From Acidobacteriota bacterium (GTDB lineage Bacteria > Acidobacteriota > Terriglobia > Terriglobales > Acidobacteriaceae), in NCBI GenBank assembly GCA_021806005.1, contig JAJZDM010000019.1:1-41842 (forward strand): a stretch of DNA of 41,842 nt, in the 5' to 3' direction. Within the stretch, counting starts at the first letter, position 1, and each line of letters starts with the position of its first letter. Positions 4,231-8,962 of this stretch are shown here, in pieces. The translations under genes and the position numbers were made by a program. Under the pieces are notes generated by a model. That model made no database searches. It was not told the origin of the DNA and saw only the letters and a list, made by a program, of their open reading frames with translations.

Positions 4231-4668
4231 CTACACTCTGCTGCCCGCGTTCAGCCGGGACTCCAGCAGCTCGCGACCCACCGCATCCAACACTCCATTG
4301 AGGAAATGGAGACTCTCCGGGGCGGCATAACGGCGCGCAATCTCAAGGGTTTCATTGATGATCACCGCGGCTGGCGTCTTCGGATAACCAAGCATCTCCG
4401 CCACCGCGCAGCGGAGCAGGTTGCGGTCCACCACCGGCATGCGCTCCAGACGCCAGTTCTGCGCATGCCGCTGTATCATGGCGTCGACATCCTCCTCGCG
4501 CTGAGTCGCAAGACGGTGCAGATCGTCCGCAAACCCTCTTGTCTCTTCGTCCACATCTTCGCGGGAGGCCCAGAAGAGTCGCTCAACCTCCTCCGGCTTC
4601 TGCTTGCCCAGGTCGCCCTGAAAAAGCATCTGCATCGCCAATTCACGTGACTTTCGGCGCGTTCCCAT
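4231..4668 (-). CDS. nusB: Transcription antitermination factor NusB
   Basis: A 145-residue protein of normal NusB length. The N-terminal RRKSRELAMQMLFQ helix is the RNA-binding arginine-rich region. The C-terminal half carries the family patterns DRNLLRCAVAEML and PAAVIINETLEIAR, ending in FLNGVLDAV. NusB binds boxA RNA with NusE (S10) and promotes antitermination on rRNA operons. Its ATG overlaps the stop of the upstream ribH fusion by one base (TGATG), so the two are translationally coupled; ribH-nusB is a classical gene pair. The hairpin at 4101-4150 ends the unit. Confidence 0.97.
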   Translation of the reverse strand: MGTRRKSRELAMQMLFQGDLGKQKPEEVERLFWASREDVDEETRGFADDLHRLATQREEDVDAMIQRHAQNWRLERMPVVDRNLLRCAVAEMLGYPKTPAAVIINETLEIARRYAAPESLHFLNGVLDAVGRELLESRLNAGSRV

Positions 4669-5591
4669 CAGGAGCCCACCTCGATAACGGCTGTGGAGAC
4701 ACGGCCGTTCTCCATTTGTATCTTCTCCTGGATGGACGCCATCTCAATGGCCGCGATACCCGCCTCAAAGCCCTTGTTGCCGGACTTCAGTCCAGCCCGG
4801 TCCAGGGCCTGCTCCAGAGTCTCGCAGGTAAGCACGCCGAAGGCATGCGGAACCCCTGTCTCCTGTTGCGACTGGCCAATGCCTCGGGCGACTTCGTTGT
4901 AGATCGCCTCGTAGTGGGCCGTCTCGCCGCGCAGCAGCACCCCCAGCGTGATAATGGCCGCAAAGCGCCCGGTCTCAGCCAGTGTCCGGGCCGCCGACGG
5001 GATCTCCCAGGCGCCTGGAACTCGAACGATCTCGACATCCGTCCGCGCACAACCGCTGCGCAACAGGGCATCGAGAGCCCCTTGCAGAAGGCGATCTGTG
5101 ATCACGGCATTCCAGCGTGCCGCCACAATGGCAAATCTCCTGCCAGCCGCCGACAAGTCGCCTTCGATCGCCATCGGACGGTTGTGCAACGGGTTCTCTG
5201 ACTGCCAGAAGGCCACACTGAGGCCTGGACGGAGCTCTACCGTAAAGAGTCTCGCATTCCAATCCGTCAACGTCGGCTCTGAGATCCCACCGGCGGCTCC
5301 TTCAGGGCGGCCCATCAACCAGGTCTTTACCGCAGTGTGGATCTCATCCAGTGCCGTCACCTCAATCAACAAAGGGGGGTCAGCAGGCAGACGTCCGTAT
5401 ACAAGTTCCAGATTTCCCAGCGGAGCAAGGAATGCCGCACCTCTTGAGGAGTTCTCGCTGCTGCTCTCTTGCTGCGCGCGCTCGCTCCAACCCTTACCCT
5501 GTTCGAAGCCCAGAGCCTCGAACAGCTCCGCAAGCTCGCTGAAGTCAGCCTCGGAGGCGACCCGCACCACGGCTGTGAGTCCTTTGATCAT
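4668..5591 (-). CDS. ribH: VOC-like domain fused to 6,7-dimethyl-8-ribityllumazine synthase
   Basis: A 307-residue protein, about twice the usual RibH length (~155). Residues ~140-307 are lumazine synthase, which condenses the ribityl-aminouracil with dihydroxybutanone phosphate in riboflavin synthesis. Visible are FAIVAARWNAVITDRLLQGA, the VPGAWEIP turn, GVLLRGETAHYE with the catalytic-type His, FGVLTCETLEQALDRAG and SGNKG. Residues 1-137 resemble a single VOC (glyoxalase/bleomycin-resistance) module: LFEALGFEQG, AFLAPLGNLELVYG, LFTVELRPGLSVAFWQ. No stop or start with a good ribosome-binding site separates the halves; the Met at the junction (MAIEGDL) could be an internal start. Overlaps nusB by one base. 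The RibH half is certain; the VOC call is by fold pattern only. Confidence 0.9.
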   Translation of the reverse strand: MIKGLTAVVRVASEADFSELAELFEALGFEQGKGWSERAQQESSSENSSRGAAFLAPLGNLELVYGRLPADPPLLIEVTALDEIHTAVKTWLMGRPEGAAGGISEPTLTDWNARLFTVELRPGLSVAFWQSENPLHNRPMAIEGDLSAAGRRFAIVAARWNAVITDRLLQGALDALLRSGCARTDVEIVRVPGAWEIPSAARTLAETGRFAAIITLGVLLRGETAHYEAIYNEVARGIGQSQQETGVPHAFGVLTCETLEQALDRAGLKSGNKGFEAGIAAIEMASIQEKIQMENGRVSTAVIEVGS

Positions 5592-7774: not shown

Positions 7775-8596
7775 CTAACGCCCCTGCCAGACCGGTGGCC
7801 GCTTGGCAAGAAATGCGCTGAGCCCCTCCTGCTTGTCAGCGGTGGCGCAGAGCCGCCCGAAGATCTCCGCTTCCGTGTCCAGTGCTTCAGCCAGCAGATG
7901 ATCTTCGCCTCGGGCAACGGATTCGAGAACACCAGCGACCGCCAGCGGGGCCATCGCGGCGATCGCGCCGGCTAACGCCCGTGCTCGAGGCAGAAGCTCA
8001 GCGGCCGGGACGACCTCGTCCACCAGGCCGAGCTGCAAAGCCTCGGAGGCGTTCGCTATGTGAGCGGAGAGCATGAGGCGAAGCGCTCTGCTGCGTCCGA
8101 TCAGTCTCGTGAGCCGCTGGGTTCCGCCATATCCAGGGATCAGACCCAGCTTCACCTCAGGGAAGCCCAGGCGGGCCGTCTCACTGGCAATACGCAACGT
8201 ACAGGCAAGGGCCAGCTCACAGCCACCTCCCAGCGCCACTCCGTTGATGGCTCCAATCACTGGCTTGCCGGCTCGCTCCAATTGGGTGTGGATTAGGCCA
8301 AACACCTGGTGGCCTCGCTGAGCGGCAGATGTACCGGTCGCTGCATCGGTTTCAGCAAGCGCGCGGATATCGGCGCCCGCGGCAAAGGCGCGATCACCAC
8401 TGCCAGTGATGATCACCACGCGGACGGCAGGGTCGCCAGCCAGGGTGGTGAACAGACGCTCAAGCTCATCGAACATGGTGCTGTTCAGAGCATGAAGCAC
8501 CTCGGGACGATGCAGCGTCACCGCGGCAATGGGGCCCTCCAGGGCAAGCTGGAGCGTGGAGAGCTCGGTCTCAGGTTCAGGCTTGGCGTTGGTCAT
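7775..8596 (-). CDS. Enoyl-CoA hydratase/isomerase (crotonase family)
   Basis: 273 residues from the chosen ATG. The frame stays open to 8839, but the upstream part is not crotonase-like. The fold is complete: HRPEVLHALNS at the start, oxyanion-hole segments RAFAAGADI and GVALGGGCELALA, and FPEVKLGLIPGYGGTQRL. Both glutamates that activate water in true enoyl-CoA hydratases are present (GGGCELA and FPEV), so it should hydrate trans-2-enoyl-CoA in beta-oxidation or related acyl-CoA catabolism. C-terminal AKRPPVWQGR is typical. The start lies inside an 18-bp tandem repeat that offers several in-frame ATG/GTG codons (8596, 8614), so the exact start is uncertain. Confidence 0.9.
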   Translation of the reverse strand: MTNAKPEPETELSTLQLALEGPIAAVTLHRPEVLHALNSTMFDELERLFTTLAGDPAVRVVIITGSGDRAFAAGADIRALAETDAATGTSAAQRGHQVFGLIHTQLERAGKPVIGAINGVALGGGCELALACTLRIASETARLGFPEVKLGLIPGYGGTQRLTRLIGRSRALRLMLSAHIANASEALQLGLVDEVVPAAELLPRARALAGAIAAMAPLAVAGVLESVARGEDHLLAEALDTEAEIFGRLCATADKQEGLSAFLAKRPPVWQGR

Positions 8597-8641
8597 GGGT
8601 CTCTGGGCTTCCATGCGTCTCTGGGCCTCCACGGGCCTCTG
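8594..8641 (-). repeat. 18-bp tandem repeat spanning the start of the enoyl-CoA hydratase
   Basis: Two full units (8606-8623 and 8624-8641) and a two-thirds unit (8594-8605). Each minus-strand unit reads roughly CAGAGRCSCRTGGARGCC and contains an in-frame ATG or GTG. The repeat therefore duplicates the presumed initiation region; encoded peptide if translated is a QRPVEA/QRRMEA repeat. Confidence 0.75.
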
Positions 8642-8962
8642 GGGGTTGATGCTGGCTCTACGGCCAGGATATGCAGGCCAGGTACGTCCACCAGCCACTC
8701 CGTTGCTGGTCTCGCCCCTGTCGATGGCCTGCGCCTCGATGAGAACCGGGCAAACCGTCAGCCGCACTCCGTCCCCGATCCTTCTTAAAGCACTAACTCC
8801 TTGATCGTACACGGTTTTCCGGACTTTCATCGAGATCACCCCAGATATGCTGGAGCAGACGAAACTTTTTATGAGGTTGAACCATCTTTACGATATAAAG
8901 ATCTTCTTATCGCACGATTTACGATCAAAATCAGGAACAGATCACACAGAAGAGGTTATGGA

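Follow-up and report, generated by a model that had tools for sequence, protein, structure and literature searches.

A lumazine synthase gene of Acidobacteriaceae carrying a predicted VOC-fold domain in the same reading frame

Lumazine synthase is the maker of the next-to-last intermediate of vitamin B2. In the stretch of Acidobacteriota DNA analysed here (41,842 nucleotides, hereafter the window), the gene coding for this enzyme opens with a segment that the initial annotation had described as a VOC-like domain, which raises the question of whether both parts belong to one protein and, if so, what such a domain would do at the N-terminus of a synthase. The presence of a VOC-like domain and a lumazine synthase in the same frame was borne out by family searches, structure prediction and the wide conservation of the arrangement, which is shared by many Acidobacteria of soil. 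Both domains are of known kinds and it is their combination that is new; the searches made in open-access literature turned up no description of it. The parts of the gene and its conserved downstream neighbour are listed in the table below. The closest named relatives, among the best 80 of 168 in a scan with the N-terminal domain, are labelled Granulicella, and an Rfam scan of the whole window at gathering thresholds gave no match.

Table. Coordinates in the window of the fusion gene, its parts and its downstream neighbour.
Feature	Coordinates	Strand	Basis
VOC-lumazine synthase fusion gene	4668..5591	-	ATG start, one frame, 307 aa plus stop
N-terminal domain of predicted VOC fold, residues 1-137	5181..5591	-	Model, structural matches, profile match to 3bt3
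Interdomain linker, about residues 132-141	5169..5198	-	Modelled without regular secondary structure from the last VOC strand to the synthase
Lumazine synthase domain including N-terminal arm, residues 142-291	4719..5168	-	PF00885 and alignment
Internal Met codon, residue 140, suspected second start	5172..5174	-	ATG immediately preceding the arm of the synthase
nusB, conserved downstream neighbour, outside the fusion	4231..4668	-	PF01029, E 1.4e-32; directly follows the fusion gene

The same fusion was sought in 120 genomes of one GTDB family (Acidobacteriaceae), in 114 of which the synthase gene was found. Both domains stand in one frame in 87 of these 114 genomes, the synthase is alone in 24, and the tally leaves three in neither class: G051, whose gene is cut by a contig end and shows an apparent VOC domain end, and G076 and G084, where the gene is in pieces. 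Unfetched genomes were scored as fused if the match starts by query residue 19 and lies in one open frame with the synthase, and G104 was scored as fused from two pieces in one frame. As for the best 80 of the 168 relatives of the N-terminal domain, 78 continue into the synthase and two reach a contig edge; nearly all are labelled Acidobacteria, with two loci (L094 and L109) labelled as other groups and one (L073) only as 'bacterium'. Cultured strains with the fusion include Edaphobacter modestus DSM 18101 and Granulicella rosea DSM 18704 and, because the fusion is also present in such named isolates, an assembly artefact was ruled out. The converse situation, i.e. separate genes in the relatives and a frameshift in the window, did not hold up either. 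Neither was seen among the loci examined (the best 80 of 168 relatives and the fetched family loci), and no second frame for the N-terminal domain lies beside the stand-alone synthase in the 24 family loci or in L141, a locus cut by a contig end.

Concerning the C-terminal half, residues 152-287 match PF00885 with an E-value of 7.5e-50 (168.9 bits vs. a cut-off of 26.7), and TIGR00114 is matched with an E-value of 8e-45 (152.3 bits vs. a cut-off of 84.6). The full-length model (pLDDT 80, pTM 0.63) has a synthase half whose best structural matches are the cage enzymes of Aquifex and B. subtilis, at 48% identity, and the ungapped alignment to these enzymes starts at residue 142/143. H226, R265 and K273, related to the B. 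subtilis numbering by the alignment offset, are invariant in 79 rows; the active-site set is here taken to be B. subtilis His88, presumed catalytic, with an Arg and a Lys of the neighbouring subunit. The only synthase match in the source genome is that of the fusion protein, and RibD, which we take its neighbour to be from its sequence, adjoins the single RibE on a different contig of the same genome. The sole synthase of a genome that also has RibD and RibE would probably be essential and active.

In the portion of PMC2935281 consulted, the active-site aromatic gate is described as Phe or Trp across lumazine synthases. Here, this gate is Trp160 (about 5112-5114). In a set of 106 rows, eight of which were missed by the search pattern and had to be assigned by inspection or by elimination, the gate is Trp in 36 and Phe in 25 of the 61 fused rows, vs. 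Phe in all 24 non-fused and all 21 outgroup rows (Trp in 0 of these 45), and the rows with Trp form one fused subclade. Applied to the best 80 of 168 relatives, the pattern reads Trp in 54 and Phe in one, and it made no call in the other 25. By offset, the gate corresponds to residue 27 of the S. pombe enzyme; among the PDB entries of this enzyme are, according to their titles, W27 mutants and a complex with riboflavin.

The N-terminal half was more elusive at the level of family profiles: residues 1-137 alone matched no Pfam family up to an E-value of 1, the N-terminal 137-140 residues gave no match to NCBIfam, and the curated Pfam cut-off for the VOC superfamily is not reached by the domain. 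Six of 34 members of its family match PF00903 Glyoxalase, with a best E-value of 0.0011, and the profile of the family matches 3bt3, a 'Glyoxalase-related enzyme', at 7e-4. The model of residues 1-137, built from 78 sequences and of medium confidence (pLDDT 73, pTM 0.61), displays a beta-alpha-beta-beta-beta unit twice, which is the VOC layout. Its structural matches are headed by VOC proteins, namely glyoxalase-like proteins and methylmalonyl-CoA epimerases; the best solved one is 3fcd (Z 11.4, 114 residues at 3.1 A), with 3oa4 (Z 10.7) and an epimerase (Z 10.6) tied within 1 of it. The VOC fold predicted for this domain is thereby supported. All of the 79 close relatives share W35, W111, W129, E62 and E77, which are less conserved in a wider set. 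A Ser/Gln/Glu-rich insertion at residues 38-46 (about 5454-5480) is present in the VOC domain of the window and in its closest relatives; it is missing from about 30 of the 34 rows of set A2 and is the part of lowest confidence in the model.

In metal-dependent VOC enzymes such as glyoxalase I and methylmalonyl-CoA epimerase, four metal ligands are provided by strands 1, 4, 5 and 8. When the corresponding columns are placed by the strands of the model and by what we take to be the motif of E. coli glyoxalase I, the four positions are T6, E62, P73 and A127. Of 34 rows, 31 retain E62, which is equivalent to one of the usual ligands; six have His at position 6, and 23 have Asp or Glu at position 73. 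Position 127 holds A, G, S or T throughout, both in the 34 rows of set A2 and in the 79 rows of set A4. The profile of the domain aligned with two VOC proteins encoded in the source genome too weakly for the ligand columns to be checked, and L175, a standalone relative, aligned well with it. From sequence and model, the four-ligand set of metal-dependent VOC enzymes thus seems to be lacking, the positions being mostly changed.

The initial annotation had also placed the N-terminus of known capsids near the shell, and the available portion of PMC7369331 concurs: both termini lie on the surface, fusions at the termini are tolerated, and peptide fusions at the N-termini left the cages as 60-mers. 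In the protein of the window, a VOC domain without the canonical metal site would be connected by a short linker to the N-terminal arm of the synthase; so joined, the VOC domains would be expected on the outer face of a pentamer or cage. The C-terminal half would be a working lumazine synthase and would probably assemble, through its own contacts, into the usual 12-pentamer cage. In the consulted part of PMC13376624, Aquifex residues R29, L121, E122 and I125 are given as cargo and interface residues; by the ungapped offset, they correspond to R167, L259, E260 and L263 here, and Aquifex W137 and E32 are replaced by F275 and Q170. That most known cage and cargo contact residues are unchanged is a mild argument against a changed assembly, one of the two effects that the initial annotation had put forward, the other being the binding of a flavin precursor. 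The same part of PMC13376624 indicates that C-terminal peptides of riboflavin synthase can direct cage entry, but do so only in some bacteria. In 48 of 50 relatives examined (L224-L273; the 30 best loci and 20 picked ones, from the 97 genomes that gave a match), RibE closes with a short hydrophobic pattern and then Gly-Tyr or Gly-Phe. The tail is present in 34 of the 35 fused genomes and in 14 of the 15 non-fused ones. This tail is a candidate cage-localization peptide and, being conserved and like known encapsulation peptides, it makes a cage with RibE as cargo plausible here by analogy.

Since its usual metal site is missing, the VOC domain would more likely bind a ligand than convert it. 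We tentatively propose that its role is the binding of a small aromatic ligand (the substrate, the lumazine product or a flavin) in the vicinity of the synthase, either for local capture or for feedback; as a guess, the ligand would be a planar compound of the riboflavin pathway. A domain rich in Trp (the invariant W35, W111 and W129), together with a Trp gate in the synthase, would be suited to an aromatic ligand. Taken further, and rather unlikely in its entirety, the scheme would become a three-layer riboflavin factory, with RibE held inside the cage through its C-terminal peptide and up to 60 outer, metal-free VOC domains capturing an intermediate or sensing flavin, so as to control entry, exit or synthesis.

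The main alternative to ligand binding, about as likely and a distinct possibility if short of probable, is that the VOC domain serves structure or assembly and has no small-molecule role: its bulk or its pairing on the outer face would limit the synthase to pentamers, give other shells or link particles. VOC proteins often pair, and the conserved residues of the N-terminal domain could serve the fold alone. The arm to which the domain is attached also packs on the neighbouring subunit and takes part in quaternary contacts, according to the portions of PMC13245402 and PMC2935281 consulted. A changed assembly is nevertheless at odds with the mostly unchanged cage contacts and with the 60-mers retained by cages bearing N-terminal peptides, and the RibE tail, equally kept with or without a VOC domain, suggests an unchanged use of the cage. 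A second, improbable alternative is that the VOC domain is itself a metal-dependent enzyme, for instance a glyoxalase-like one that would clear reactive side products formed from the substrate dihydroxybutanone phosphate. Glyoxalases and epimerases are indeed among the top structural matches of the fold and Glu62 is largely kept, but the three other ligand positions depart from the usual set, most clearly position 127, and a metal-dependent glyoxalase is disfavoured by these changes.

A start at the internal Met before the synthase had been considered in the initial annotation. This codon is ATG in only three of 79 aligned sequences, which makes internal initiation unlikely, and 46 of the 79 show no in-frame ATG, GTG or TTG between codons -10 and +4 relative to it, whereas the upstream part begins with ATG in all of the best 80 of 168 relatives. 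The dN/dS of the N-terminal domain is 0.09-0.20 vs. nine relatives, that of the synthase being 0.02-0.05 in seven pairs with unsaturated dS; of six further pairs, five have values of 0.04-0.23 for the N-terminal domain, and the sixth, a very close pair (dS 0.03), has 0.84. These values are rough, because many dS are near saturation, and suggest that the N-terminal domain is mostly under purifying selection. The window does have an ATG immediately ahead of the synthase arm, but translation from this codon, with the part upstream of it being a remnant or open by chance, is most improbable. We infer that the gene is translated as one chain, and this two-domain architecture together with an active synthase very probably describes a genuine protein. 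The N-terminal domain is absent from 24 of the 114 family genomes, including G006, congeneric with two carriers, and is therefore dispensable.

Strong matches to the N-terminal domain are confined to one bacterial family, Acidobacteriaceae. Class-wide, 72 of 74 family genomes were matched vs. four of 225 others, these four matches being frames of 143-194 residues; phylum-wide, six weak matches were found outside the family, and all 21 outgroup synthases examined are without the domain. Genus g7 shows both states: the domain is fused in G082 and G385, and G006 gave no match to it. In the synthase tree, each of the family's three main branches contains fused rows, with five changes (four if L141 counts as fused), and a single clade of all fused rows is not rejected (p-AU 0.13). 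A joined synthase-NusB tree, restricted to 93 of the 106 rows since NusB was not recovered in 13, gave seven changes of the fused label. An early gain of the N-terminal domain followed by several losses would be the simplest reading of the synthase tree, without being proven by it. As for a standalone donor of the domain, the search found only distant single VOC genes (L044, L171, L175 and two partial ones). L044 (1504-1995, minus strand) is a standalone gene matched by the profile of the domain with an E-value of 1.9e-35, in a genome, G004, that also has the fusion; it is possibly a duplicate, or a relative of the donor.

On the downstream side, nusB follows on the same strand in 78 of the best 80 fused loci, in all 21 outgroup loci and in 23 of the 24 non-fused family loci. 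On the upstream side, the window carries at 7775-8839 (minus strand) a gene that we take to be enoyl-CoA-hydratase-like. Of the 24 non-fused family loci, 21 have such a gene upstream of ribH and in the same orientation, as do 12 of the 21 outgroup loci. It is mostly immediately upstream in the non-fused relatives, and elsewhere or inverted in many fused ones; the neighbourhood of ribH is rearranged in part of the family.

Lumazine synthase cages are both a model protein compartment and a scaffold decorated by hand. The present family is a source of natural linkers, and with it the effect of decoration on assembly, cargo loading and flavin metabolism could be tested directly, the relatives without the VOC domain being ready controls.

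Among known systems, the mitomycin- and bleomycin-binding VOC proteins (1kmz and 1ecs) work by ligand binding, and the N-terminal domain shares with them the predicted fold and the loss of the usual metal-ligand set; the identity to them is 16-18%, and here the VOC domain is fused to a biosynthetic enzyme. The lumazine synthases of Aquifex aeolicus and Bacillus subtilis (8yt4, 1hqk and 1rvv), which form 60-subunit cages, have the same fold as the C-terminal half, to which they align without gaps at the 48% identity given above, with the active-site and most contact residues kept. These enzymes are single-domain, whereas the fusion has a 137-residue VOC domain before the arm, and their active-site Phe is Trp160 in the fusion. 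Finally, laboratory-decorated lumazine synthase cages likewise carry a foreign domain on the outward N-terminus, as described in the consulted portion of PMC7369331; in comparison, the cage considered here is a predicted one, and the attached domain is natural and kept across a bacterial family.
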